The notes below the pieces were generated by a model. That model was not told the origin of the DNA. It did not search any database and saw only the letters and a program-made list of their open reading frames with translations. From Rhododendron vialii (Eukaryota > Streptophyta > Magnoliopsida > Ericales > Ericaceae), in NCBI RefSeq assembly GCF_030253575.1, contig NC_080568.1:19864501-19928500 (forward strand): a stretch of DNA of 64,000 nucleotides. The letters are read 5' to 3'. Every line of letters starts with the position of its first letter. The first letter of the stretch is position 1. The position numbers and the translations under genes were made by a program. Shown in pieces: positions 2,330 to 58,990 of the stretch.

Positions 2330-5084
<2,755 letters not shown>

Positions 5085-5089
5085 TTAAA

Positions 5090-6988
5090 CCTACAGGACA
5101 GGAAAATGAAAGAATGAATCTACCAATATTTTCTCGTAAGTTTGAATTTCCTGAATAGAAGTCTCTTGAAGAGGTATTTCCTGAAGAAGAACAGGTACCT
5201 GCAAATAATGAGATCTCAATACACTATATGAATATAAGAGAAATATTGGATAGAAACAAAATCGTTGCCGATAACGTATTTTCGTTAAAAGTTGCTCTTA
5301 ACATTACCAGAAGTAATGAGAACATTACTGGAAGTAATGAAGAAAGTGAACCACAAACTGTCGAGGAATGTCGACATAGGAATGATTGGCCAATGTGGAA
5401 ATGAGCAATTCAAGCAAAACTAAATTCTATTGCAAAAAGGGAAGTATTTGGACCTGTAGTCCAAACCCCTGAAAGGATACAGCCTGTAGGATATAAATGG
5501 GTGTTTGTGCGAAAGTGCAATGAGAAGAATGAAGTTGTGAGATACAAAGCACGACTTGTTGCACAAGGTTTCTCGCAGAGACCTGGAGTTGATTATGAGA
5601 AGACATACTCTCCTGTAATGGATGGTATCACATTCAGATTTTTGATTAGTTTAGTAGTAACAGAATGTCTAGATATGTGTCTGATGGACGTAGTGACATC
5701 ATATTTATATGGATCACTAAATGCTGACATATACATGAAGATCCCCGAAGGATATGCTATGCCTGAAGTATGCAATTTAAAACCCCGAAGTGTTTATTCT
5801 CTTAAGCTACAAAAATCACTGTATGGGTTGAAACAGTCTGGTCGTATGTGGTACAAACGACTTAGTGATTATTTGTTAAAGGAGGGATATGAAAATGATC
5901 TAATTTGTCCATGTATTTTTACTAAGAAATCAAATTCTGGATTTGCGATTTTTGCGGTTTATGTCGATGACTTAAATCTTGTAGGAACTCCGGAAGAACT
6001 TATAAAAACTGCGGAATATTTAAAAGGGGAGTTTGAAATGAAAGATCTTGGTAAAACGAAATTTTGTCTCGGCCTGCAGATCGAGCATTTGCCAAATGTT
6101 ATCCTAGTACATTAGTCGGTATACACTGAAAAAATTCTGAAGCAATTTTACATGGATAAAGCGCATCCATTGAGTACTCCCATGGTAGTTCGATCACTTG
6201 ATGTTAACAAGGATCCCTTCCGTCCTCTTGAAGAGGAAAAAGATATTCTTGGTCCTGAAGTACCATATATGAGTGCAATTGGTGCACTTACGTATTTAGC
6301 AAATTGTATACGACCAGATATAGCGTTCTCGGTCAATTTATTGGCTCGATACAGTTCTGCTCCAACTCGGCGGCATTGGAAAGGAATTAAACACATCTTC
6401 CGTTACCTTCGAAGAACGGTTGACTTAGGCTTATTTTATTCAAAAGGATCGACATCTCAATTAATCGAATATGCAGATGCTGATTATTTATCGGATCCAT
6501 GTAAAGCCCGATCACAAACAGGATATGTGTTTACTTGCGGCGGTGCTGCCATTTCATGGCGTTCTGTGAAGCAAACGTTGACTGCTACTTCTTCTAATCC
6601 CTCTGAAATCATTGCAATTCATGAAACAAATCGTGAATGTGTTTGGCTGAGATCAATGATTCAACACAATCGGGAGAAATGCGAATTGTCTTCAATCAAG
6701 GATTGTTCAACAATTTTGTATAAAGATAATACCGTATGTATCACACAAATCAAAGGTGGTTATATCAAAGGAGACAAAACTAAGCACATATCGCCAAAAT
6801 TCTTTTACACTCATGACCTCCAGAAAAGCGGTGATATTGATGTTCAGCAAATACGCTCTAGCGACAATCTGACAAACTTATTCACTAAGGCATTACCAAC
6901 TACAACGTTCAAGAAGCTGGTAGTAAATATTGGAATGCGTCGACTCAAAGATTTATCATACAATGTTGAGGGGGAGTCAACGACCTGA
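5090..6988 (+). pseudogene. Ty1/copia reverse transcriptase - RNase H (broken)
   Basis: One continuous frame resumes directly after the inserted LTR. It holds the RT domain (YKARLVAQGFSQRPGVDYEKTYSPV; catalytic YVDD motif in VYVDDLNLVG) and then RNase H (YADADYLSDP..S.TGYVF; C-terminal LFTKALP). Three in-frame stops interrupt it: TAG at 5156, TGA at 5402 and TAG at 6113. The frame is otherwise kept for about 1.9 kb, so decay here is mostly point mutation. An RNase H motif of copia type and a downstream polypurine tract confirm the family. The lineage within copia was not determined. Confidence 0.92.
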
Positions 6989-7092
6989 AGATTATATACC
7001 ATGTGTACTCTTTTTCCTTCGCCAGAGGTTTTTCCCATTGGGTTTTCCTTGGCAAGGTTTTAACGAGGCATGCGTTTAATATTTTGTCATCC

Positions 7093-7545
7093 AGGGGGGA
7101 GTGTTGTGAAATTAATGATTGACAAAATGTAATTAATGGTGAAAGTCATAAGTTTCAGTGAATTAAATTTACAGAAAACGCAATTGTAACAGGCGTATTA
7201 AATATACGTTTGTAAACTTGTAATCTTTGTCTCCTATAAAGACATAATGTAAATTGCAATAAATAGTAAGAATCAGAAGTATCTGATTGATCCTGCTGAT
7301 CAATTGTGTTTCTGATTGTTCTAAAAGAACTATATTTAACATATTTGTGTTATTATTGTCCTTATTTTATGTTTTGTTCTTTTGCTATTATCTTAGTTTT
7401 ATATCAATGTGGTAACTTTTGGTTATCCATTTTTAATTATGTCATTAGAGATAGCTTAGGAGATGTTTATTTAAACCCTGTGCAGTGGCTTTTACTGGAC
7501 TATCCATTTGGACCATGCAGTTCTACTACGTAACGTATTTTAGCA
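7093..7545 (+). repeat. Polypurine tract and 3' LTR of the copia element
   Basis: The polypurine tract AGGGGGGAG (7093-7101) is followed by TGTTGTGAAATT at 7102, the expected LTR start. A TATA-like CCTATAAAGA lies at about 7233-7242, so the LTR carries a promoter. The 3' boundary is uncertain: a terminal CA could lie anywhere from about 7290 to 7545. The 5' LTR is outside the window, so the pair cannot be compared to date the insertion. Confidence 0.6.
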
Positions 7546-8690
7546 GTCAGGCCCGTTCTGCTAATATTCTTATTTTTTTAAGTATTTATTTGTAATTATT
7601 TAACTTTAATAGCTAGGCAGAAAATATGCGGAAACACAAATTAATCAATCTAATTTTTCCTTTGGCATTCATAGACTCAAGCATAGGCCAAATATGAAAT
7701 GTTGAATATATACTTTATATGTCAACATATGTGTTTCACCTAAGTTAAAACCTTTTTATTCTTCCACTTAGGTTAACACCACAATTTTGGATTAACCAAA
7801 ATGTAAGTAAATTTAATTTGTTGGGATCGGTAAATCTGTGTCCCATCCCAGTTAAATACTACTCCAGTATTGATTACATTCCGAGATTTGCACCATCTGC
7901 CCTTGCAAGTCTCATATCCCAAAAGAAGTGTGTGGGGGTCCCGGGTCCCCTATAGGCATGTGAAAGAGGTTATGTTTTGATTGTTGTGTTTCTAGCATTT
8001 TTGTTTGTCAAATTAGTGTACATGCACATGCAGAATGAATCAATTTTTATCTGTATCCCCGCGCGCACTTATACCATATATATGTTATTGGTCAATCAAA
8101 TTCGAATCTATCTGTATCGGTCAATTCTTATGGGTGTCTTTTATTTTGGTCCGTCTTCATGCAGCCCTTTTGGGTTTGTCATTTGAAGTGCGGACATCCT
8201 AAACTTCTATTTGGGATGGTTCTGATGCTGTGGAAAATAACAAATTATTTCTCTTTTTTATGAACCTGATCACATGCCTGAATTTTCTTTTGCACTATTC
8301 TTCAAGACATTTCCTATTTAAAAAAGTGTTTAACTATCACATCTACGAAGAAAAAAATTCAAAAATAATTTTATGTTGCAAATAAACTTATATGTTCCTC
8401 AAGTAAAATAATTTAATTTTTAGATATAAACGAATCATCTTCAACAAAAATGAGAGAGATGTTTTTGATAGATTTAAGAAGGAAAATAGAGAAATAAAGA
8501 AGAAGATGAAAAGGAGGCTCGCTTGACTTGCTTTCTATGATAAGATAGTAATTAATTCCATAAACACGTGGTCGTTTTGAGGTGAAAGTTCAGTGAATAG
8601 CGGCTTGATTGTGTGTAATTAATTATTTAGTAGTTTTTTGGGCATCATCACATGATACCCCAATACCCTTCTCAATAACATATTCAGGTG
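7546..8690. other. AT-rich intergenic DNA, nothing recognised
   Basis: No supported gene. The reading frames seen here are short and lack any family motif. Confidence 0.6.
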
Positions 8691-8700
8691 GGACACCATG

Positions 8701-9050
8701 GGGCCTGTTTGGTTACTTATTGCATTTTCAGGTTCTCATTTTTGAGTTTTTGGCTCCCTCATTCTAGAATTCAGTTTCACAGGACTCATTCACCCTTTTT
8801 CACTCTAGAGGCAAGAAGTGAGAAGTAAAGAGAGAGGAGCTTTTTGACTTCTCATTTTCTCTTCTTTTTTTTTCATTTTGATTAACAAAAAGATTTACAG
8901 AATGTATTCTGCATGTATCTCATTAACATTAATCATGTTGCAAAATACATTCTACACATATTTCTCAAACACTCTATCATATTCAAAATACAATCTGACC
9001 AAAATTTAAAAAGCCAAAAAGTCAATAACCATGAGGGTAACCAAACACCC
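8701..9050. mobile_element. MITE, hAT-like ends
   Basis: Terminal inverted repeats GGGCCTGTTTGGTTAC (left) and GTAACCAAACACCC (right) bound 350 bp of non-coding sequence. The pentamer CCATG directly flanks both ends (8696-8700 and 9051-9055). The GGGCCTGTTTGG end is typical of plant non-autonomous DNA elements. The 5 bp duplication is shorter than the 8 bp expected of hAT, so the superfamily is uncertain. Confidence 0.65.
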
Positions 9051-9622: not shown

Positions 9623-10499
9623 TGAGCAAAACAAGCAAGTTATTCGAGTTTAGGCCCCAAAAATTTACTTACTACACAGACGGGCCCCTAAAGTTTGGGT
9701 AGTTTTCATTGAATATAGATTTATAAAACTATATTCATTTAAATGAGCCCATCCTATAGAAGTAAAATGATTACACATGCATAATTAGTACTTATGCCAC
9801 CAAAATACAAGAAAAGTGATATATTTAAGCGATTGTTTTCAATTTTTTTACTGATGCAAAATTTTCTAAAAAAAACATATCATGTTAAGTACTTGTAATT
9901 TTACTTTTTTGAAATCGACATATTTTTGCTTGTAAAAATGCAAAAGGATCTCTTTTTTTAGGTTCGCCTTGGGCCCTAAATATTTCACGGCCACCCCGGC
10001 CCCGGTCCTGAGTATAGTGTTGACTAAAAAGTGGAGCTCCTTACATAGGGGTCCATAGATTAATTGAGATGCGAGACTTTAATTGTTAAAGTGCATAATT
10101 ACTAAAGGGAAAATCATACTCCTTAGTGATGATTTGACCTATTCTTTTCTGATTGGATTAAATTAATTGAAGTTTGTCTAAAGCCGCTTCAAAAAAAAAA
10201 AAAGTTCGTTATGCCAATAAAACTTTTAAGTATTTTGATCACTGTGACATGAGGTGCAAGATTAATCTGGATTTCCATATATCCATCGATTAAGAAAGAA
10301 AGGAAGTACTGTAAACAAAATCTGGGCGGTTTAGCAAAATTAGAAAGTTCCCAAATCCATTAGTTACAGATGAATTTGGCTGATATAAACCACCCGAATA
10401 CTTAAATTTCTTCAAACAGGATCGAATAATGTTATCATAATCTCACTAAAATCAAAATAATTTTCTCATAAACCCTACCTTTGTGAATTAGTACTTCTT
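9623..10499. other. Intergenic, no gene recognised
   Basis: AT-rich sequence with a short GC-rich stretch near 9990-10010. No gene or clear element boundary seen. Confidence 0.5.
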
Positions 10500-34774: not shown

Positions 34775-34782
34775 TGTGCGAG

Positions 34783-35130
34783 TAGAGGTGTCAAATGGGC
34801 CGTGCCGGCACGGCACGACACGGGCACGGCACGGGCACGGGGCAGCACGGCACGTCACAGGCACGGTATTGGCCTGGCACGGCACGACACAACTCGATTG
34901 TAGTGGGCCCGGGGCACGGCACGGGAACGGAAGTGGGCGGCACAGCACGGGCACGGCACGAAAATTGGCCTGGCACGGCACGGCACGACACAGTCGTAGA
35001 CGGGCACGACACGGGCACGGGCACGAAAAGTGGACAGGAACGGCACGGCACGGCACGGTTCTAGCAAGGCACGGGCACGGGCACGACCCGGCACGAGCAT
35101 GGGCACGAAAGGGCACGGCACGAGGCACGA
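34783..35130. repeat. Left terminal and subterminal GGCACG array of the hAT element
   Basis: After the TIR, about 340 bp consist of degenerate GGCACG, GGGCACG and GACACG units. In Ac-like elements subterminal motifs bind the transposase; the same role is inferred here. The open frames in all phases through this region are artefacts of the repeat. Confidence 0.9.
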
Positions 35131-35605
35131 AAAAAAAAATTAATTAAGCCAAATGACTTTTTTTTAAAAATTTTAAAAAAAATAAACAATTTCTATTCGG
35201 TAAAAAATATTTATTTACCTTTTTTTAAAGGTAAACAACTAAGATATTTAATTTTTTTTTAAAAACAATTTATTAAAAATCATGTTTTTAAAAAATCATT
35301 TTTTTACTTTTAAAAAACTATCAAATTTTATTTGGTAAAAATATTTGTTTTGTTTTTGTTAGTAAAATTAAATAGGTTTTGGACCTTTGGTTTGCAAATT
35401 TAACATTACAATACAAGATAACAAGTAAAATTAAAAAAACTTATCAAAATATTTATGGTGCAAGAGTAATTTAATATGAAAGGAAACGTGCAAAAGTCAT
35501 ATATTATTTACCCCAAATCTAACAAGAAATAAGAAAAAAAGGTGTCAAACAAAAAAGAAAAAAAATACATAGTAGAAATAAGGGGAAAAAATAAATAAAT
35601 AAGGG

Positions 35606-35690
35606 TTAGCTGGACAGCCTAGACTAGGACTTGAACCCAGGTCCTTAGGTCCTTTTATACACAAACAAACCACTATGCCACCAATTAACT
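35606..35690 (-). other. tRNA-like Pol III promoter module inside the hAT element
   Basis: Minus strand: TGGCATAGTGG (A-box, 35670-35680) and GGTTCAAGTCC (B-box, 35628-35638) are near-consensus and correctly ordered, about 30 bp apart, with a T run beyond. No cloverleaf acceptor pairing was found, so it is more likely a SINE remnant than a tRNA gene. Confidence 0.5.
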
Positions 35691-35759
35691 TGTATTATGA
35701 ATTTGAAAAATTAGTATACGTTATGTAGCTCTATTATATAAAAACGAGGCCATCAAGCA

Positions 35760-36560
35760 GTAGCCACACAATCGCAATGCAATCACAACGATCGATACCA
35801 TTCAATGCATTCATTTTGTTGTGTTTAGTGTTTTAATCATTGGATCCAATTTTTTCGTGCGTCAGATTTTGATAGCTCTTTCATCGGCACACTGATCATT
35901 GTTTGATTGAATTTTTTTTACGTCTGATCAAGTATGTAGCGATAAGCATTTTACTTGATTATTGATATGAATGATCTAATCCCTCCCAAATAAAAGTTAG
36001 ATGGTTCTGATTTTTATAAAATAGCTTAGGCAGCACTTAAGTAGTAATTTATAGGACTTAAACACCTCTAGAAGAACCGAATGTGCTTCGATCACGTGGT
36101 TTCTGACATTCGATTATCACCTATTCAGGTGAGAATGATAAATTTGATAAGACGTGAAATCCTAACGGTTTAGATCGAACATTCAGGAAAAAGAGTCTGT
36201 AGCTACCTTTCAAATATATACATCGAACTTAGTTGGTCATGAAGCAAGGTATTCTGCTATAATATAATGTACGTTAGCCACACGATCACAAAACAAAAAT
36301 GACGATCCATACCGTTCATTTTGTTATTCTCTATGTTTAATGACTCTAACCAATTTTTGGGTCTACCGGATTTTTAAAACACCTTCATCAAGACGTAGAT
36401 TCATTAATAGAAAAATAAACGTTATAAACAATCAAGTATATAATGATAACCAAATTACTTTATTTTTTGCAAGAATGATATAATCGCTCCCACATAAAAG
36501 ATAGACGGTTTCGATTTCAAAAAAAAGCTCGGGCGGCCCTCAAGTGATGCATTATAGGAC
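35760..36560. repeat. Diverged tandem duplication, about 0.3 kb units
   Basis: 35760-36055 and 36275-36560 share an ordered set of words (AGCCACACRATC, GATCSATACC, TTCATTTTGTT, AATGATNTAATC, CTCCCA..TAAAAG, TATAGGACTT). Non-coding interior of the hAT element. Confidence 0.6.
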
Positions 36561-36629
36561 TTTACGAGAATTTTCCATTATTGGTGCATATGGATTATTG
36601 GCGTCTCGTATGCACATGATCATACCGTT

Positions 36630-37178
36630 CATATAAAAGAGTAAGAGATGTTGCCCTAGCAGACATCTCTCATCTCTGGACTCTGATTCTCTCTCTGCCT
36701 CTCACAATCTCACTCTCTCAAGTCTCTCACGACAGTCTCAGGCCAGAGCAACGTTCGGAAATCTAACGTTCGGAATTGTCAACAGATAAATCCGATCTCT
36801 CTCACTCCCAACGTTTGAATCTCACTCTCGTCTCTCTGACACTCTCCACTCTCAAAGTTCTGATTCTCAACATCTCTCTCACACTCTCTCCGTCTCTCGC
36901 TTCTCTCCACTTTCAACGGTGACTGGTAGTGGTCTGGCGGTGAGTCAAACCGTAGATCGACTGCCGTTTTCGATTGAGGTCGTTTGTTTGCCCGATTGAA
37001 AGTCTGAAACCCTGGATCTGAGTTTGTTTGCCCGACTGAAGGCCCCTGTCACGTTCAACGATTTGTCTCTGAAACGCGACGACTGAGGTCATTTACGGTG
37101 ACAGACGTGTACGACGAGTTTCCTTTTCCGGTGACCGACGTGAACAGATCTAGCCCTTCCCTTTCCAGACGTCAACAG
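36630..37178 (+). promoter_or_regulatory. Putative transposase promoter and 5' leader exon
   Basis: A TATA-like CATATAAAAG at about 36630-36640 is followed by a C/T-rich leader (many TCTCTC and CTCACTCTC words) to about 37178, where CAACAG|GTACCT is a good splice donor. Acceptors TGTTTTCAG (to 38740) and TTTTTTGTAG (to 38750) lie just before the transposase ATG. An intron of about 1.56 kb in the leader is therefore inferred. Confidence 0.5.
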
Positions 37179-37591
37179 GTACCTCTCTCACTTCCCTCTC
37201 CAGACGTGAACAGATTTGGGTTTATGGTTTCTATTTGTTGATCCTGATTTGATTTGAGTGAATTTTTTCAATCATTTGATGCATATATGAGATTTGATTT
37301 TACGGCAGTAATGATGCAGATATGAGATTTGATTTTACTGAGGTCATTTGATGCATATATGAGACGTGAACAGTCTGAAACCCTAGATCTGATTTGATTT
37401 TTTCCTCTGATTAGATTTGAGTTATAGTGATCTCCATAAGCATGTCAGTAATGATGCATATATGAGATTTGATTTTACGGCGGTTTAATTTCCAATAGAT
37501 CGACTTTTATACTTTATATATAATATATATAATATAATCAGAGGAAAGTATAGAGGCCATTGTATGAAACAAACTACAAGAAAAAGCTTAC

Positions 37592-38222
37592 ACAGAAAAG
37601 GAGGCTAGCTTCTTTATAGTAGTAACTTGACAGGTTGCGAAGCATGCCAGCTATTCTAGCATTGTTGGTTCCGGCACCAATCAACCCCAAGGAGATGACA
37701 GCAGCCTGTAGAATCCAGAAATGTAAAATATTTGAAATATAACAAGAATTAGATAATACTAACACTAATTCTCAATTAAACAACAGTTAGAATACCATTG
37801 CTACTTCAGTATCAGTGTCATGACTCATGACTAAGTCTGCTTAATGTGTCCTTAACATTGACCTGGATCACAACATCCAATCACAGATTTTCTTAGCAAT
37901 ATATCAACTGCACTCTAACTGCCACTTCAAGAGTGCTCAGCTTGCAAGATATCACTGGATAGGTTACCTTAGGGTTCGATATACAGAGGAGACCAAGAGC
38001 CAAAGGAACTGCCCTTCTGATATTCTGCTCCCCATACTGCAAAAGATGCTCTAATGAGCGAATAGCCATTTCAATACCCAATTCTTCAGCCATTGCTACC
38101 ATAAGCACCTTGAGCACATTCCCTGTACCAGCATAAGCACGGGAAAGTAGAGTCATGTCACAGTACTTCCTAATTTGCACATTAAGTGTCTTTGAAACCT
38201 CTGCCGTTGCCTCCACACTTTC
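37592..38222 (-). pseudogene. RPN1: Captured fragment of 26S proteasome subunit RPN1 (PSMD2) gene
   Basis: Three exons with introns, antisense to the transposase. Exon 1 (38222-37978) encodes [31 protein letters not shown] and [20 protein letters not shown]. Exon 2 (37862-37796) encodes VNVKDTLSRLSH..DTDTEVAM. Exon 3 (37705-37592) encodes AAVISLGLIGAGTNNARIAG and MLRNLSSYYYKEASLLFC. GT-AG borders are intact. This is the PC-repeat region of RPN1, the base subunit of the 19S particle that docks ubiquitin receptors and Usp14/UBP6. Compared with the family, about 27 codons are missing inside exon 1 (junction near 38108), and exon 2 carries a 7 bp duplication (GTCATGA twice) that shifts the frame. 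Only about a tenth of the gene is present, so it cannot make RPN1. Retained introns show DNA-level capture. Confidence 0.9.
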
Positions 38223-38753
38223 CTGTTAAACGACATTCCGAAGAAAACCATCACAAACATATCAGGATATTAGGAACCAACTGACCAACATATACCAAGC
38301 CTAATGATAGGCCAAGTTCAAAGGTAATAGGATATTAGGATTTGGACTTGTTTTTTATTTCGTGTTTATAGTTATGGTATGCAAAATGTTTTTTGTTTTC
38401 CATCTCTGCACTGAACTGATCATCTGCTTTTGGTGGAGCCTAAATTCAGAAGCTCTCTTTGTTTGATTATTTGTCTGGTTAGACTGCATATGGTTTTGGT
38501 GTTGAGATATAGTAGTTGTAATAAAGGAGCACAAACTCCACATGGGACTCTGGACATGCTTGAGCTATAAACGATGTGGTTTATGGTTACTGAGTCAGTC
38601 ATTACCGTCTTGAATTCAAATTTCGAATACAGTTTACTTTGCTCTATTTGTACATTCTAGGTTTTCTGCACATGTAGGTTATTAACTTATTTAGATGTTA
38701 TTAATTAATGTTCTACTGTACTAATTTTCTCTGTTTTCAGTTTTTTGTAGGAG

Positions 38754-40838
38754 ATGGATCCTGAAAACATTCATTTTGACAATGAGGGTTTAGACCTTAA
38801 CCCAGATGATGATGAACCAACTCTACCAGCTGGAAGGGAGTCTGTAGGTGAAGCTGCTTCAAACATTGCAGCAGGTTTTAATCCTACAGGCGTAACAGGC
38901 TGTAGCCAATCAGCCCAGTCAAGTGGAACAAGGCGTTACTCTTGGGTATGGAAACATGCATCTATAGTTGATAACTATAAAAATGCACAGGGAATTGATT
39001 TAGGATCTAGAGCTGTATGTAATTATTGTCCAAATAATTATACTTGCGTAAGTAAGGGTGGTGTAGGGCATCTTCAACGACATTTAGAAAACAAACATAA
39101 AAAATTTAAACATTCCGAAGTTGGAGTCAGTGGTGAATCTGGTGGTTTTGATTCCGTAGGTGGTACGTCGAATTTCGTATATTCTCAATCTAGTATGAGA
39201 GAGGGATTGGCCCGTTACGTAGTTGCAGCAGAACAACCATTTACTTTTGGTGATGATATTAGATTTGAATATTTTGTCAAACATTATCTTAATCCTCTTT
39301 TTTCGAAAGTTTCTAGAAATACAACCAGAAGTGATTCATTGAAAGCTTTTATTGAAGTTAGAAAAGTTTTGATGAGTGAAATTGCGGAACTTGGTAGTTT
39401 AATCTCTTTTACTTCAGATTTGTGGAGTGGTCGAAATAATCTTGGTTACATTTCTGTGACAGCTCATTATATAGACTCCAATTGGATTTTGAATAAAAAA
39501 ATTATTGCTTTCCGTTTAATGGAGTATCCTCATAATGCTATGAACATTTTTCAATGTATAATGGGTGTTTTTAGGGAGTTTGAAATTGTTGATAAAGTTT
39601 TTAGTATTACTTTTGATAACCATTCTGCTAATACTAGTTCAATTGATTTGTTCAAACAAAATTTGACTACTCTTCATGCTGGACAATTTTTTCATGTGCG
39701 ATGTGTTTGTCATATTATTAACTTAGTTGTGCAAAATGGTTTGAAACATATAGGACCACAAATAGAAAAAATTAGAGATGCTATTCTTTTTATTGCTACT
39801 TCGCCAGCTAGGCAACAAGAATTTGAAGGATTGTGTGTAAGTTACAATATTAAAGCAAAAAAAATCAAAACTGATGTGAAAACTCGTTGGAATTCAACAT
39901 TTCTTATGTTAAAATCTTGTAGGAATCATGCTGATGTAATTTCTGCTTATATTAATTCCAAGCATATGCGTACTGATGGTGGTTTAACTCGAGGTGATTG
40001 GAAGATTGCTTTTGAGTTTATGAATTTTTTGAAAATATTTTATGCTGCTACCTTAGCTTGCTCAGGTGTTCGTTATCCTACTACTTGTATTGTGCTTAAT
40101 CACTTGTATAATATGAGTCACACTCTTAAAAGTCATAGAACGAAACCAAATTTTGTAGCTGCTTGTAAGTCTATGGAAGATAAATTCAACAAATATTTCG
40201 AGAACATGCCAACAATATTTATTGTAGCTTCTGTAATGGACCCAAGGATTAAGGCAAGGGGTGTTGAAAAGCTCTTAAAAGGGCTTGGTGAGAATTTAGG
40301 GATTACATTACCTTCTATTTCTACTATCACTGCGCTGTTGACTTCTATATATGCTTCATATGAGTCTAAATTTGCATGCACTACTGCTGCTCCATATTCT
40401 TCAAGTATTAATGACCCATGTTCTACAAGTAACAATGAGAATGACCCATCTTGGTTTCTGATTTCAGGGCCAAGTAGTAGTGAAACTTTATCACGATCTG
40501 AACTTACTCAATATTTAGAGATAAATTTAGTTACCAATGAGGAGTTTCAATCATTTGATATCTTAGCTTGGTGGAAAAAAACTGAAAAGACATTTCCCAT
40601 TCTTTCTATCATGGCACGTGATTTACTAACACCACCTGTGTCTTCAGTAGCTTCCGAATCTGCTTTTAGTGCAGGTAATAGAGTGTTGGATGAGAGGAGG
40701 AGCAGACTAGCTCCCGACATTTTAGACTGTCTTATATGCTTAAAAGATTGGGAGGATGCACGTCTTGGAATTCAAAGATGCCATCCTAGAGATGAATTCA
40801 GAGATTATTTTTCGGACTCAGATATAGATGCTGATTAG
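38754..40838 (+). CDS. hAT transposase (BED finger, RNase H-like core, hAT dimerization domain)
   Basis: 694 residues without interruption; the ATG follows two splice acceptors. Residues about 62-118 form a BED zinc finger (SWVWKHASI..., C89, C92, H110, H115) that should bind the element ends. An acidic N-terminus precedes it. The RNase H-like core starts with TSDLWSG (D222) and TFDNHSAN (D288), followed by CHIINLVVQNG (319-329). The C-terminal dimerization block, residues about 600-665, reads PPVSSVASESAFSAGNRVLD then ERRSRLAPDILDCLICLKDW; E635 is the likely third acidic residue. Length and domain order match Ac-like and ZBED-type hAT transposases. It probably catalyses cut-and-paste movement of its own 9.5 kb element. 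Domesticated hAT genes are an alternative, but TIRs and an 8 bp target duplication around it argue for a real transposon. Confidence 0.95.
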   Translation: MDPENIHFDNEGLDLNPDDDEPTLPAGRESVGEAASNIAAGFNPTGVTGCSQSAQSSGTRRYSWVWKHASIVDNYKNAQGIDLGSRAVCNYCPNNYTCVSKGGVGHLQRHLENKHKKFKHSEVGVSGESGGFDSVGGTSNFVYSQSSMREGLARYVVAAEQPFTFGDDIRFEYFVKHYLNPLFSKVSRNTTRSDSLKAFIEVRKVLMSEIAELGSLISFTSDLWSGRNNLGYISVTAHYIDSNWILNKKIIAFRLMEYPHNAMNIFQCIMGVFREFEIVDKVFSITFDNHSANTSSIDLFKQNLTTLHAGQFFHVRCVCHIINLVVQNGLKHIGPQIEKIRDAILFIATSPARQQEFEGLCVSYNIKAKKIKTDVKTRWNSTFLMLKSCRNHADVISAYINSKHMRTDGGLTRGDWKIAFEFMNFLKIFYAATLACSGVRYPTTCIVLNHLYNMSHTLKSHRTKPNFVAACKSMEDKFNKYFENMPTIFIVASVMDPRIKARGVEKLLKGLGENLGITLPSISTITALLTSIYASYESKFACTTAAPYSSSINDPCSTSNNENDPSWFLISGPSSSETLSRSELTQYLEINLVTNEEFQSFDILAWWKKTEKTFPILSIMARDLLTPPVSSVASESAFSAGNRVLDERRSRLAPDILDCLICLKDWEDARLGIQRCHPRDEFRDYFSDSDIDAD

Positions 40839-40849
40839 GGGGAGATGCA

Positions 40850-41945
40850 TTGCTGATGCTGGTAACTTATGAAGGCCTTAAATGACAACTTAATGTTGCC
40901 GCATGCAGGTGCTATTCTTCTTATATCTGAGTGTGTGCTATGATGATATAATCTGAGCCTTTGGTGTTTAGTGTGGCCAAGATGATGCTGGTAACTTATG
41001 AAGGTCTTAAATGGCAACTTAATGTTACCGCATCCAGGTGCTATTCTTTATATATCTGAGTGTGTGCTATAATGATATAATCTGATCTGAGCCTTTGGTG
41101 TTTAGTGTGGCTATGATGATGTAATCTGAGCCTAATTGGTGTTTTGTGTGGCTATGATGATATAATCTGAGCCTTGGTGTTTAGTGTGGCTATGATGATG
41201 TAATCTGAGCCTAATTGGTGTTTTGTGTGGCTATGATGATATAATCTGAGCCTTTGGTTGTTTAGTGTGGCTATGATGATATAATCCTGAGCCAAATTGG
41301 TGTTATACTTCAAGCTTTCATTTGTTATTGGACTGAGCAAAAATTGAGCAGAAATAACTTTGTATGTTGCTGCTGCTGTTTGAACAACTCTGTGTGTCAG
41401 TGTGTGGGTGTCTTTCAATTCAAGTTTTAGTGTCCCAAGTGTGTGTGTATTTGCTGGTTTCAAAATGTGCAGTTTTTAGTGTGGCTATGATGATATAATC
41501 TGAGCCAAATTGGCGTTATACTTCAAGCTTTCATTTGTTATTGGACTGAGCAGAAACTGAGCAAAAATTGTGCAGAAATGACTTTGTATGCTGCTGCTGC
41601 TGTTTGAACAACTCTGTGTGTCAGTGTGTGGGTGTCTTTCAATTCAAGTTTTAGTGTCCCAAGTGTGTGTGTATTTGCTGGTTTCAAAATGTGCAGTTTT
41701 TAGTGTGGCTATGATGATATAGTCTGAGCCAAATTGGCGTTATACTTCAAGCTTTCATTTGTTATTGGACTGAGCAGAAACTGAGCAAAAATTGAGCAGA
41801 AATGGTTTTGTATGTTGCTGCTGCTGTTTGAACAACTCTGTGTCAGTGTGTGGGTGTCTTTCAATTCAAGTTTTAGTGTCCCAAGTGTGTGTGTGTTTGT
41901 TGGTTTCAAAATGTGCAGTTTTTAGTTGGTTTTTGGTTCAAAGTT
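40850..41945. repeat. Tandem repeats downstream of the transposase
   Basis: Three nested types are present. First, a unit of about 128 bp occurs twice (GATGCTGGTAACTTATGAAGG at about 40855 and 40983). Second, units of about 50 bp (GTGTGGCTATGATGAT..AATCTGAGCC) occur at 41100-41290. Third, a unit of about 215-224 bp occurs three times, starting near 41292, 41505 and 41729 (CCAAATTGG.GTTATACTTC). A (TG)n run ends near 42008. They lie in the likely 3' UTR or terminator region; no coding is supported. Confidence 0.88.
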
Positions 41946-42059
41946 TGGAGGGTTTTGGCCGATTTTTGGTTCAAAAAAGTGCAGATGTGTGTGTGTGTGT
42001 GTGTGTGTTAAAGATACAACAGTCAGCTAGTTTCAAAATGTGCAGTTTTTAGTTGTTTG

Positions 42060-43780
42060 TTGGTTCAAATGGGGAAGGCTCCTGGGACTTGCGATTTTAA
42101 TGGGATAGCTGCAATCACTACCACGAATCCAAGTAAGATTAGAATGGCATTGTCAGCAGAAAAACTGTCTGCTTTCTTTCGTTTGTGCTCTGTTCCTTTT
42201 GCTTTGACATTTTTTACTTATATGATTTTTTTTCTCTGTTATTACAATAATGCAAGTCATAATTATTGTCTATTTGGAAGGTAATATTCCTTTCTTTACC
42301 TGAACAATCATTTTCTGGTGAATGTACGGATTTAGATCTTCTCTCCATTTCATAAACAGAATTCTTATCTCTCGTTTGACACAAAGTGCAATAACTTAAC
42401 TTCAAAATACCAATGGGAAAATAACCTTTTTGTGCAACCAAGGGTCTTAAAGCCGAAACAAGTGACTTTAGCTGATATAGAAAGAGAACATTTTTTTGAA
42501 CGGACGTCTACGTAGTTGCTAACTTTATGGAACAGTTTTCAGTTTGAAATTAAGAGTTTTGGTGTCCATTTCTCACGTCATTAGTTGTGAAATGGAGAGG
42601 ATCAAAATCCAATTCTATAATTTACATGTACATGCTTTATTCATGTCCCCAATTCTCTTATTGCATATGAACTCCTACCCACAAGTATAAGGAAAACAAG
42701 GGTTAGCAAGTTAGCAACTAATGAGCAACTCACGTTTCTTGCCTTTGGTCGATGTAGTGGTGGCAACAATGGAACCTTCGTAAACACCACAGCCCCGGCA
42801 TTGAATTCTTGGAGCTCAAGTTCTTCTTCCCACTACCTCCATGGCTGTGGTTCAACACGTGCGGTTATTCTAGTTGGAGTCCTATCATTGTTTGCGATTT
42901 TCCTCTGATTCATATGTTAATGGGTTGTTTGCCAGTAGGGAATTTTAGCTAGATGGCAGTTTTTATTCATTATGTGCCCATGTAGAACTTTGTCTCGATG
43001 TACTGCTCCTAGCCAGTTTTTTCCTCTGTGAATATGTTGCAGTTGAAAGGTTAGGAATTCAGATGGGGATGTGTTTTGACTGGTCAATTATTCTTTTTAA
43101 GGTTGATGATTCCTTCAGTTCTGATTGATCGCTGATCATTGTAGAACTCTCTTTATCTATCCCATTTGGTTTATATAGATGTTTCTCTTAATGGAAAACA
43201 ATCCTCTATATGAATATGTTGCAGTTGAATAGGCTTGTGAATTACTTGAACTGAAATCTTAGAACTATACAAAGTAGTTGAAATTGCTGCCTTTTGAAGT
43301 ACATAATGTCTTGACAGTATTAGCCCAATAATAACCTGCATTTATATAGTTCAAATCTGCGTAAAGCGGCCAGTTGGGATTTTTCTTACCTTTGTGAGGG
43401 CTATAAAACCAACAAAACTCTACTTTTGAAGTTGTGTACATTTTTTTGTGGAAATTGAACAGCGTTAGGTGGCAGAAATAACAGGAATTTCACCTGTACA
43501 ACTGAAGCAGCTTGGATTTTGCCCGATATTGTGGCCTGAAAGGGATTTTGGCATGGCTGTTCCTTTTCATTTTTGACAAGACAATACATACAAACTTGAG
43601 ACCACAATGATTTTCGCACTTTAAAATTTATCTTTTAGTGTCTTGGAGTGCACTGAGGCACACAAGGATTGACAATGGAAAATGGAAAGTGATTCCTATC
43701 ATAAAATTAATGACATAGCATTTTTTCGATACTCTCCTATTTATTTTTAGAATTTACTACTCTCTCCACTTTGGATAGAG
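42060..43780. other. hAT element interior, no gene recognised
   Basis: About 1.7 kb of non-coding sequence. Short frames occur but no domain was recognised, and I cannot exclude a further captured fragment (42740-42860 has coding-like composition). Confidence 0.45.
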
Positions 43781-43977
43781 GTGTTAAATGGGACTTGTGC
43801 GACAATAAGGATTGAAAGCGTAAGCGTAGATTGACTGAACCATTTACCAAACTCGCTTGTATACTAACCGAAAAGTTGTTTAGAGATTTATCAAGTAGGA
43901 AGTTGGGAAAGCGAAGAAAAAGAGGGGACGTTCAAAGAAAAAAAAGGAAAGAAGGGGCAATCGAAGTCGAATAGCAA

Positions 43978-44329
43978 ATGGCACGGCACGACACGACACG
44001 ATTTAAGAAAACGGGCCGGCACGACACGACACGATTGAAAACGGCACGGCACGGCACGACACGATTTAAGAAAATGGGCCGGCACGACACGACACGAATT
44101 CAGAAACGGGCCAGCACGACACGACACGATTGGCAAATGGCACGGCACGACACGACACGATTTAAGTAAACGGGCCGGCACGACACGACACGATTGACAA
44201 ACGGCACGGCACGGCACGACACGATTTGAGTAAATATAGTAAACGGGCCGGCACGGCACGGCACGAAGCACGGTTAGCACGAAGTTAAACGGGCCGTGCC
44301 GGCACGGCACGATCCGTTTGACACCTCTA
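43978..44329. repeat. Right subterminal array and TIR of the hAT element
   Basis: Units such as CGGGCCGGCACGACACGACACGA alternate with ATTTAAGAAAA spacers, then GGGCCGTGCCGGCACGGCACG and the inverted end CGTTTGACACCTCTA at 44329. The core words match the left array. Confidence 0.9.
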
Positions 44330-44653
44330 TGTGCGAGACTCAAACATTCATGTGAATTTAAACCACTAGTTTCTCTTCCGAGAATATTTTCGAGGTAATT
44401 TTTCTGGGATATCTAGCATTGCTAGAAAAAAGAAAGAAAGAAAGAAAGGGAGCCTAAAACCATAAATCGATCATGAGGAAGTAAGTACTACTTTCATTCG
44501 TAAAGCAAAGGATTCACATGATCTTGTGGGCTTTTGGGGCAGTGGGCCCCAAATCGCAGTAAATGCTAATCTTCCATAAAATCATGAAGCAAGTGGGCCC
44601 AAAAAGGTTCTCTTTTTCAATATTCAGGGCCCTCTTCTCATCCTTCATCTCCC

Positions 44654-44736: not shown

Positions 44737-46924
44737 ATGGCAATCCCTCTGTTTCTTGTACTCCTCTTGCCCCTTCTATCTCCAAACCCCATCTCTTGTT
44801 CACCAGTTCAAGACCCCGAGAAAGTAGTACAAGAAGTGAATGAGTATGATACCATTTCTTTTTCTTTTTTTTCCGAAAAATTTTATTATAGGAATTCCAA
44901 GAATAAATCTAGACACATCTTCATCCGTAACCATTCGATACACGTGGGCCTCGTATTATTTTACGAGTCAGACGTTCATGAGGCATTTCGGGCACGTCTG
45001 TGTTTTACCTATTTGCACCAAAAATTTTGTGTACCTAAACATTGTTCTTAAAATTCGGAGCATATCTTCTTAAGTAAATTGGAAGTTCAAATGTTACTTA
45101 ACAATGTGTCTCATGTTTTTTGTACATTATATTGATTTCAGGCGCATCAATGCATCGAGAAGGAAATTGGGTTTTCTCTCTTGTGGGACGGGCAACCCCA
45201 TCGACGATTGTTGGCGGTGCGATCCAAATTGGGAACAAAATCGCCAACGCCTAGCAGATTGCTCTATTGGGTTTGGCAAAAATGCCATTGGTGGCAAGGA
45301 CGGTAAAATCTACATTGTTACCGACCCGCAAGACAATGACCCGGTAAACCCAAAACCCGGCACACTACGATACGGCGTGATCCAAGACGAGCCTCTGTGG
45401 ATCATATTCGCACGTGACATGGTGATCAAGCTCAAAGAAGAGCTGATCATGAATTCATTCAAGACGATCGACGGTCGAGGATCCAGCGTCCACATCGCCG
45501 GCGGGCCCTGCCTCACAATCCAGTTCGTAACCAACATTATCATACACGGGATCAACATTCACGATTGCAAGCAGGGGGGGAATGCCAACGTGCGGGACTC
45601 CCCGCGGCACTACGGGTGGAGGACGATATCGGACGGCGATGGCGTGTCGATTTTCGGGGGAAGCCATGTTTGGGTGGACCATTGCTCGCTGTCGAACTGC
45701 AACGATGGTCTCATTGATGCAATTCATGGATCAACGGCTATAACTATATCTAACAACTACATGACCCACCATAACAAGGTTATGCTGTTGGGCCACAGTG
45801 ATAGCTTTACACAGGACAAGAACATGCAAGTCACCATTGCATTCAACCACTTTGGGGAGGGGCTTGTGCAAAGGATGCCAAGGTAATTAATTATGGTCTA
45901 ACTGTCACCTATGATGCGTACACCTAGCACTTTCTTCCACATGAAAATGTATAATTCGTGTGAGCAGCAGCGCGAACGCAAAAGCGCCTTTGAATCACAT
46001 CTCGAACTACTAAAATCTTCGAGAGCGAGGATTAAAAGCGCAAGTGCAATATAAGAAACGAGAGCGAGAACGGAATTTAACAAGTTTGTAATGTTTCCAA
46101 CGACCATTGGTACTCTCTTTGTCCCCGCAAGTTTTTAAAATTATAAACGGAATTTAACAGGGGTACCCACACATCTACTTGCATTTATTATTCTCTACTG
46201 AGATTTGAACAAGTGGGACCACCGATGCATGTGCTGATGCCTTTTGTTGTTTATGTCGGCATCAGATGTAGACATGGATACTTTCATGTGGTGAACAATG
46301 ACTACACCCATTGGGAAATGTATGCAATTGGGGGAAGTGCAGAGCCCACCATCAACAGCCAAGGCAACAGATTCCTGGCTCCCAACGACAGGTTCAACAA
46401 AGAGGTTAGCTAGATTTACTAACCCATTACCTTTTGATTTGTTTTTTCATAATCGGGTGTCTCGACAAGATACTTAGATAAGCTCATCTCGAATACGCTT
46501 GGGCCCTAAAGTAAACAATTGAGCAAAGCTGCAATGATCTGAAAGGTTTTTCGCTGACGCTGAAAGTCGTTGGTGCCTACTTGATCTACCCGTTAGGGTT
46601 GCTTAGATTTAGCCCATAATAATTCTTCACTACAAAATTTCTGCAAAACTAGCTCAATGTTACTAATTTTTTGTTTGCCAAATTACTGTACAAATTTTTC
46701 AGATTACAAAACGTGAGGAAGCGCCGGAGAGTGAATGGAAGAAATGGAATTGGAGATCCGAAGGCGATTTAATGTTGAATGGTGCATTTTTCACGGCGAC
46801 CGGAGCCGGGGCATCATCTAGTTATGCAAAGGCATCGAGCTTGGGAGCGAGACCCTCTTCGCTAATTAGCTCAATTACTTCGGGAGCAGGTGCACTTGGC
46901 TGCAAGAAAGGCTCACGCTGCTAA
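44737..46924 (+). CDS. Pectate lyase (polysaccharide lyase family 1), secreted
   Basis: Four exons are inferred from GT-AG borders: 44737-44843, 45142-45882, 46266-46404 and 46703-46924. These total 1209 bp and encode 402 residues, the usual size. Residues 1 to about 22 are a signal peptide ([15 protein letters not shown]). The protein cleaves de-esterified homogalacturonan by beta-elimination in the cell wall and needs Ca2+. Family marks are [17 protein letters not shown] near the start, the parallel beta-helix core, the [20 protein letters not shown] block with Ca-binding acids (D215), [12 protein letters not shown], and [17 protein letters not shown] (280-296) holding the catalytic Arg region. 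The end is [14 protein letters not shown]...GCKKGSRC. No lesions are seen. The neighbouring hAT insertion may affect its expression. Which plant PLL subgroup it belongs to is not resolved. Confidence 0.93.
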
Positions 46925-50248: not shown

Positions 50249-51220
50249 ATTCATGTTCCCGTTAGGTAGCCCAACCCCATCACCAATAGCTAACCGGTTG
50301 GACTTGTTTGACCGAGTTCTCTGGTCTGTAGCTAGTACAGAACTTAACAATTAAGTCCGTACATCACTGGTGTTGGCCTGTTGGGTAGTGAATTGTCGCA
50401 ACTATAAGGCATCATTCTTAATTTTAAACTTAATTATTTTCTCCGTTTTGTGTGTGTTGTTCGTCTTTTCTAAATTTTTGTTAGATTTGAGTGATATTTT
50501 TTGAATTAATCATCCATATCAACGAGAGGAACTTAAAAAGTAAAAAATTATCACCGAAAGCAAAAAAGAAATCACTAAAAACGAAAAAAAAGTATCAAAT
50601 AACTGTCTTATTTGTCTAAAGTGCTGTCTTATTTGAATTTTTTCAACATCGGTCCACATTTTTTATACTTTTACGATTTATCTCGTCGAAAAGAACGATT
50701 AATCCCAAAAATTAAGACGAAAAGCTAAACAAAAAGTTAAGAAAAATAAAAAATACTAAAATAAGTTTCAAACATATAAGTTTACAAGAACGCAGCCTAA
50801 ACAATTATACTCCAAAACCGTTGGTAATGGAAAACTTTGCACCGTCTTCACATAATTTGTCTGCCAGGAGAACACTAACAAAAGCAAAAGCAAAAGCATT
50901 AACACAACAATATTAGCAGTCTGCCAACCAGAAAGCAAGAGTCGTAAAATACACCCATTACCAAAAACGACGTCGGTAGATCTCACAGCACGGAACATGT
51001 AGAATGAGTTACTTTGAGTCACCTTTTGATTCGATGATAATATATACAATGTGGCTGGCAACCATTCTAGGCTAATCAAAACTTTTGGAAATTAAGGACT
51101 CAGATGTGTATCAGTACTCAGAAGGAGAGATAACATCATCAATCTTCAGAATCATCTTGACAACTTGGGTTGCTAGCAATATCGATCTGCTGCTGCTTCC
51201 CAATTAGTGTCTCAAATACA
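48410..51220. other. Intergenic, no gene recognised
   Basis: Contains C-rich CCACCCCCCACCACC stretches near 49245 and 49400, and a pure (TC)n microsatellite at 50213-50244. The 147-residue frame at 49001-49444 (-) reads through simple sequence and matches nothing known to me. Confidence 0.5.
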
Positions 51221-51224
51221 TTTT

Positions 51225-51610
51225 GCTCAAATACAAGGTTTTGGGTCATGACATGGCCGCTGTTGGGAATTTTCTCTTTGTGGTGCGCGGTTGTGTTTTC
51301 TAGATTTCGACGTGAAGTTTGGATGATGAAGGAGTACGGGGTAACAGAATCGTGGACCAAATTTACGATTAATTATGGGATATGGTTATTGGAGTTGTTG
51401 TGTTTATTAGCAGAGGACGAATTTTTGTTTAGAACCAAAGGAAATGTGGAGGGAGTACTCCAAGATAAATTGGTTGTGTACAATTTGAAAAAGAAAACAC
51501 TGAGGGACATGGTGGCTCATGGTATTCCATCTAAATTTCATGATGGGGGCACCTATGTCAAGAGCCTTAATATCTCTCCTAATCATGGAGGAGGGAATGG
51601 GAGGCAATGA
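51225..51610 (+). pseudogene. 3' fragment of an FBA-type F-box gene
   Basis: Encodes REVWMMKEYGVTESWTKFTI ... LCLLAEDEFLFRTKGNVEGV ... QDKLVVYNLKKKTLRDMV ... TYVKSL. This is clearly homologous to the C-terminal third of the F-box sequence at 57725-58990 (EVWMMKEY, LCLLAED, DKLVVY.-KKKTLRDMV, GTYVKSL). Homology fades upstream of about 51225, and no F-box precedes it. A truncated duplicate of the neighbouring gene, 6-7 kb away in the same orientation. Confidence 0.82.
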
Positions 51611-57724: not shown

Positions 57725-58990
57725 ATGAAGAAGAAGAAGACGACGACGATTGTGTCCAACGGTGATGCCAAGGGCTACTCAATCTAGAGAGTTAACCTTC
57801 CACCGGAGATCCTCGCCGACATACTCTCATGGTTATCAGTCAAATCTCTCTGTAAATTAAAGTGTGTCTCTCCCTCTTGGAATTCCCTAATCTCTTCCCC
57901 CTATTTAGCCAAAACCCATCTCAAACGAAACCCTAGTCAAGAAATCATTCTCTTATGAGACTCTGAATATCTCTACTCCGTTGATGTCGCCGCCACAATT
58001 CCCGCCGCAAAAAAGCTTAATTTCCCCTCGGTCCAATACTCCCACAAGTGGGTCAAGGTTTTTGGGTCTTGCAATGGCTTGCTTCTTGTTTGTGATCAAG
58101 ATTATTCCCAATTTCTTTTGAATCCATCCACTAGAGAACGTAAGAAGCTGCCCACTTTCCCTTCTTTTATTTTGAATTTGATTTCTGAGCCATTTATTTT
58201 TCTACATGGTTTTGGTTATGACTCGTCTACAGATGATTACAAGGTTGTGATGCTCTCTTGTTGGTATAATAACTCTGATCTTAAATCCTATTGCAACCAT
58301 TATGCTAATATTACATATGTGGTTGTCTATTCAATGAAAACTTATGCTTGGAAGAGCATTCAAGGTTCCCATCATCATCCTTTGGGATGTCCTTCTAGGG
58401 TATACTTTAGTGAGCATCTTCATTGGTTTTGTAAGGGGAGTGGTGGTTTGGATGGTTCTTTAGTTATTGTTGCTTTCAATTTGTCAGATGAGATTTTCAA
58501 GGAAGTGCCCACTTTGTTTAGTCATTCCGAGATTTGGTATCATTGCATGGCAGTTCTTGGGGGTAGTCTCTGTGTGATTGTCTACCCGCCTAATTTCTGT
58601 AATGAAGTTTGGATGATGAAGGAGTACAGGGTAAGAGATTCGCGGACCAAATTTATGATTAATACTAAGATGGTGCTATTGGATTGGTTGTGTTTGTTAG
58701 CAGAGGACAAAATTTTGTTGAAAATCAAAGGAAATGTATTGGAGGAAGTGGACCAAGATAAATTGGTTGTGTACAGTATGAAAAAGAAAACACTGAGGGA
58801 CATGGTGGTTTGTGGCATTCCGCCTAAGTGTCCATACGAGGGCACCTATGTCAAGAGCCTTGTCTCTCTTAATCATGGAGGAGGGATTGGGAGAAATGAA
58901 TGGGAAACTTCTTCAGGTAGTTTTTGTGAAACTCAAATGAATTTTTGCCTTCTTATTTCATGCAAATCCATCTCTATGTTGGATGCATGA
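57725..58990 (+). pseudogene. F-box protein (FBA/kelch-type interaction domain), two premature stops
   Basis: One continuous 422-codon frame broken only by TAG at 57785 (codon 21) and TGA at 57956 (codon 78). The F-box lies at about codons 22-68 (VNLPPEILADILSWLSVKSL; SWNSLISSPYLAKTHL). Then come the F-box-associated repeats GSCNGLLLVCDQDYSQFLLN, PSTRERKKLPTFP and FGYDSSTDDYKVV. F-box proteins are substrate adaptors of SCF ubiquitin ligases. The first stop precedes the F-box, so normal translation would fail; the frame beyond is otherwise clean. The second stop fits a C-to-T change of CGA. A reinitiated C-terminal product without F-box is possible but unproven. Confidence 0.85.

Follow-up and report, generated by a model that had tools for sequence, protein, structure and literature searches.

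The hAT element and its RPN1 piece

The window, meaning here the whole stretch of 64,000 nucleotides of Rhododendron vialii DNA that was analysed (C12:19864501-19928500 of a searched genome of 533 Mb in 13 contigs), contains a complete hAT element. Its superfamily is evident from 8-bp target-site duplications (TSDs), terminal inverted repeats and a transposase with a dimerisation domain. In an inverted-repeat search of the window, 34783-34822 pairs with 44290-44329 (repeat I1), and the 8-mer of the TSD occurs twice in the window and not at all on the opposite strand. The subterminal stretches are rich in GGCACG. All transposase domains (PF05699, E 7.5e-27; PF14372; PF02892) lie in one open frame and, thus, the element is transposase-bearing. 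The frame is preceded by a probable leader intron. Of 11 family copies, 8 have its splice-donor motif and all 11 have its acceptor motif, with AG changed to AA in two of them.

34775..34782, no strand: left target-site duplication TGTGCGAG, perfect 8 bp
34783..44329, plus strand: complete hAT element, 9547 bp, with inverted ends TAGAGGTGTCAAA..., delimited by repeat I1 and the TSD
37179..38750, plus strand: probable leader intron of the transposase gene, from splice motifs across 11 family copies
38754..40838, plus strand: hAT transposase, open frame of 694 aa, with zf-BED, hAT-like_RNase-H and Dimer_Tnp_hAT domains
44330..44337, no strand: right target-site duplication TGTGCGAG, perfect 8 bp

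A pectate lyase gene (PF00544 match at 45074-45886) has its probable start codon at 44737, about 0.4 kb downstream of the right end of the element, and the insertion may touch the promoter of this gene. Elsewhere in the window there are pieces of Copia-like retrotransposons at 406-1874 and 5405-6988 (gag_pre-integrs, rve and RVT_2 matches), as well as two frames with similar ends at 51161-51610 and 57959-58990. The longer of these matches the KIB1-4 beta-propeller family (PF03478), while no Pfam family matches the shorter, 51161-51610.

Within the probable leader intron, antisense to the transposase, sits a piece of the proteasome gene RPN1. A 123-aa peptide from this piece has its best PDB match (E 1e-55) in chain 8amz_Z, a '26S proteasome non-ATPase regulatory subunit 2 homolog', which ranks above human and yeast RPN1. 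The structure 8amz is from spinach. At the DNA level, the piece corresponds to host-gene positions 7364-7531 at 99.4% and 7686-8246 at 97.5% identity (donor coordinates count from a joined region starting at C6:29892000). With identities this high, introns included, a chance match is excluded. The presence of introns also shows that it was genomic DNA, not a transcript, that was copied, and rules out a retrocopy. Parts of five donor exons are present, and donor introns extend to 37536 and 38269.

37536..38314, minus strand: RPN1 insert, from alignment to the donor; alignment with the RPN1-free relatives E1 and E2 resumes at 38315
37592..37705, minus strand: complete RPN1 exon (donor 8077-8190), from donor alignment
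37796..37862, minus strand: RPN1 exon (donor 7927-7986), frame broken by a 7-bp tandem duplication, from donor alignment
37968..38222, minus strand: two fused RPN1 exons (donor 7411-7524 and the end of 7606-7821), with a 154-bp deletion at 38102/38103
38264..38275, minus strand: TCCTAATATCCT between two RPN1 bits; the identical 12 bases also occur within hAT sequence, at 38329-38340
38284..38309, minus strand: 26 bp from an RPN1 exon further upstream (ISLGLVYVG region), 24/26 identical

The piece has decayed and cannot encode RPN1. It differs from the donor by 9 substitutions in 727 aligned bases. Of the 154 bp deleted, 74 were intronic and 80 coding, and their loss fused two donor exons. The score of the 26-bp bit was matched by none of 300 shuffles. 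The original prediction of RPN1 coding sequence on the minus strand of 37592-38222 is borne out by the PDB match and by identity with the host gene. Likewise, splice motifs in the family copies agree with its placement antisense to the transposase in a probable leader intron, and the inverted ends, TSD and open frame show that the hAT is complete. That it captured part of a host gene is upheld by the donor locus, by further copies with the piece and by RPN1-free relatives, all described below. The predicted limits hold as outer exon borders, but the captured stretch is longer (37536-38314). Similarly, the three predicted exons with intact GT-AG borders exist as three blocks, but these derive from four donor exons, two of which are fused, the frame of the middle block is broken, and there is a further 26-bp exon bit. 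Neither the decay of the fragment nor a second, sense acquisition had been part of the prediction.

The host gene and the other copies of the family

A search of the whole genome with an 85-aa RPN1 query gave 12 matches, two of which form a host gene (C6:29899410-29899820), while the remaining 10 fall in hAT copies, that of the window included. Thus, one host RPN1 locus was found, on contig C6 and separate from the element copies. Exon peptides of this region match residues 76-894 of the 895 of 8amz_Z, in a search that covered residues 76 onwards. Within the 15 kb around host RPN1, nothing other than RPN1 itself matches the window element, so an adjoining hAT as the reason for a double capture was rejected. 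The large RPN1 intron of the donor (about C6:29900591-29901725) contains two dispersed-repeat stretches with many genome matches at about 70-80% identity.

RPN1 DNA is present at nine loci of this hAT family. In five of them it is antisense in the leader intron, and in four, the D set, it is in the sense orientation downstream of the transposase (whole-element coordinates were calculated from search positions).

Window, 34783..44329: antisense copy in the leader intron
C1:24127404-24137326: antisense copy in the leader intron
C9:3452784-3461565: antisense copy in the leader intron
C11:6707811-6717375: antisense copy in the leader intron
C6 around 24152384: antisense copy in the leader intron
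C1:42315152-42329345: sense copy downstream of the transposase
C1:16204774-16218271: sense copy downstream of the transposase
C11:18511746-18522522: sense copy downstream of the transposase
C10:26795402-26797128: sense copy downstream of the transposase

Both ends and a perfect TSD are found in seven of the nine, with TSDs that differ between copies and, therefore, the RPN1 piece moves with the element. The right end of the C6 copy was not found in the 32 kb examined, and no element end was found in the part of the C10 locus examined. The transposase frame is open in the window, C1:24.1, C11:6.7 and C1:42.3 copies, and it is frameshifted, stopped or truncated in the other five carriers. In the genome-wide look at family transposases, 64 of 578 candidates were scored.

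The donor locus and capture boundaries through which the prediction was to be checked were both obtained, as were further copies: in four others the piece is placed and oriented as in the window, and RPN1-free relatives exist. Two outcomes that had been named as speaking against a capture were a later independent insertion, with RPN1 absent from other family members, and a fragment that belongs to a full gene in a corrected assembly. Instead, the piece is common to family members, and its recurrence at the same element position in separately inserted copies rules out both an assembly artefact and a full gene in place. The latter is also ruled out by the host gene, which stands on another contig.

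From the donor, the D copies have retained 4374-4770, parts of 6493-7099, 7502-8873 and 9911-10255. The C10 copy holds donor 4374-6146 unbroken with a left join identical to that of the D set and, therefore, the D capture was once longer and was later cut by deletions. No RPN1 match occurs in the RPN1-free relatives E1 (C2:34413546), E2 (C3:21296900) and E3, either in genome-wide RPN1 searches or in the stretches examined, which for E2 and E3 extend no further than the equivalents of about 41.7 and 41.3 kb, respectively. In the B, D and E copies the leader intron is occupied by different sequence and, thus, it tolerates other DNA too. The leader-intron filler of the C9 copy (L011:5612-6146) and of the C1:24.1 copy matches C12:3253588 at 95% and C5:15044555 at 94%, and is possibly further captured DNA. 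A second captured gene at 42040-43800 was considered and is unsupported. In this case, 11 of 12 matches belong to the window itself or to five further loci, of which three lie beside family transposase matches, and the twelfth is 36 bases long.

One acquisition or two

It is likely that this transposase-bearing hAT family acquired host RPN1 genomic DNA twice, once antisense and once sense. The leader-intron and D sets differ in the edges, the orientation and the place of their RPN1 DNA. In a tree of 10 copies, built from the transposase frame and 130 bp upstream, the RPN1-free E1 and E2 join the leader-intron set, with D outside (supports of 97-100). In addition, the window piece differs from three D pieces at only 14, 9 and 11 of 587 RPN1 positions (1.5-2.4%), whereas the elements themselves differ by 5.1-5.5% in the transposase region and by about 17%, gaps counted, in the left noncoding DNA. 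At the transposase rate, so few RPN1 differences would be expected with P = 2e-6 to 4e-4. The C copies differ from D by 1.8-3.0% over 605 positions. The two B copies differ from D by 2.6-3.5% over 227 comparable positions, a comparison that alone would not separate the models. It should be considered that the window and C pieces differ by 2.0-2.4%, against 3.4-4.4%, gaps counted, for the left noncoding DNA of these copies; this mismatch means that rates are uneven. Two acquisitions are favoured because the RPN1-free relatives branch with the leader-intron set and because RPN1 divergence is below element divergence.

The joins point to how these acquisitions may have taken place. Read on the minus strand, the right join of the window piece runs from hAT sequence to the RPN1 exon bit, then to TCCTAATATCCT, and then to RPN1 from donor 7364. 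This alternation of RPN1, 12 bp of hAT and RPN1 is the pattern expected from template switching during repair. The switch points at the window joins share 4-6 bases, and one D join shares CTG. With such hAT-like filler at the join, insertion of a second, RPN1-carrying transposon into the hAT is unsupported; no inverted-repeat pair closely brackets the piece among the 25 longest of 73 in the window. Each acquisition would have arisen when the gap behind an excised element was repaired, with the polymerase leaving its template at a few matching bases, copying RPN1 and switching back. One acquisition put RPN1 antisense in the leader intron, and the other put a longer stretch in sense downstream of the transposase, where internal deletions followed. 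Transposition would then have multiplied the RPN1-loaded elements. The pieces would be mostly passengers, presumably tolerated in the leader intron because it would be spliced out.

Alternatively, the host gene may have been captured a single time, as the long sense piece of the D type, with the antisense piece later copied from a D-type element via template switching. Three differences from the host gene that are common to the window and C pieces and the D pieces (donor 7841, donor 7935 and one in the small exon bit) fit such copying from one element to another. They also fit later changes in the host gene, without proving them, as would be expected from two of them being coding and synonymous and the third intronic. 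Both sets, moreover, break near donor 7098, in each case following TTCCT within one RPN1 exon, which may be due to chance, to a weak spot or to element-to-element copying. Nevertheless, donor 7364-7501 is present in the window set and absent from the three D copies that cover this region, and the changes at 8026, 8056 and 8227 common to all three D copies are absent in the window and C copies. Thus, element-to-element copying is an unlikely source of the antisense piece. A single capture that predates the split of the two sets, with a later move and inversion in one lineage and a loss in E1 and E2, is scarcely credible: both sets hold an overlapping stretch of the same gene, but this course requires a capture, a move and a loss, the piece is absent in E1 and E2, and RPN1 divergence between the window and D is so far below element divergence that, judging from these comparisons, inheritance of one capture is very unlikely and could be rescued only by sequence conversion among copies.

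Known captures and a possible effect on RPN1

Capture by hAT elements has been published for grape Hatvine-6 (PMC2528002), maize Ds (PMC3260210), a fungal histone H3 (PMC6710886) and Pack-hAT (PMC8903248). Consequently, the expectation that capture is well known in Pack-MULEs and Helitrons and much less so in hAT elements has to be tempered by these cases, although the maize paper calls it rare. In the grapevine paper, Hatvine-6 elements likewise share a transposase and inverted ends, and the rest varies and often matches host introns and exons; unlike in the window family, the passages concerned do not describe one gene being acquired twice in opposite orientations. The same source suggests that MULEs captured ULP domains repeatedly and, therefore, repeated capture is known for another superfamily. 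Maize Ds2 and Ds-l4 (2 and 9 cases, respectively, in the account given) are hAT elements with intron-containing genomic fragments, as here, but Ds elements are described as nonautonomous, whereas several RPN1 carriers keep an open transposase frame. Replication errors in the repair of excision breaks are cited in that account as a suggested route of capture.

The histone H3 hAT of Dothideomycete fungi is reported as an element of about 9.5 kb that amplifies a housekeeping gene. In that case, a transcript or retrocopy is described as captured, whereas here intron-containing genomic DNA was copied, in a plant and, in all likelihood, twice in one family. Pack-hAT elements, as presented in PMC8903248, resemble the window element in having hAT ends that flank captured coding DNA in plants. 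By the definition given there, Pack-TYPE elements are without a functional transposase, whereas the window element encodes one; its 694-aa open frame sets it apart from the nonautonomous Pack-hAT class. The RPN1 piece is instead a transduplicated host gene fragment, with a separate donor locus and a position inside the element, which carried it to nine loci. No report of an RPN1 fragment in a hAT, or of hAT gene capture in Rhododendron, was found in open-licence literature, and, among the matches listed from that literature, none describes a hAT family that captured one gene twice. Thus, hAT gene capture itself is already known, and what is new is the acquisition of one gene twice in opposite orientations.

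The best supported reading of the pieces is that they are passenger DNA. The window copy has 287 of 807 RPN1 exon 21-mers in antisense, and three D copies have 367-459 of 807 in sense. Such shared 21-mers are, as sequence, a precondition only for small-RNA action, and an antisense or small-RNA effect on RPN1 is possible. It is quite improbable that the antisense stretches of the window set and the sense stretches of the D set form a functional silencing locus whose small RNAs would act on RPN1. In its favour, a review (PMC13317346) reports for maize that captured fragments come into siRNA-linked conflict with their essential donor genes; a search of the text of this review found hAT elements nowhere mentioned. 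However, none of the eight RPN1-bearing copies counted (C10 being outside the count) has both orientations, and the window piece lies within a probable intron. More doubtful still is that the double capture was no accident, with elements that carry sense or antisense RPN1 being favoured by escaping full silencing and the two subfamilies jointly supplying double-stranded RNA in trans. The escape would come about because small RNAs against RPN1-loaded elements would also strike the only host RPN1 locus found.

Because several carriers keep an open transposase frame, capture need not cost an element its coding capacity. The family offers a clean natural experiment, with one host gene, one transposon family, two opposite acquisitions, RPN1-free relatives and several copies of each. 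With it, two questions become testable: whether hAT elements regularly capture genes through gap repair, and whether a transposon that carries part of an essential gene is silenced differently by its host.
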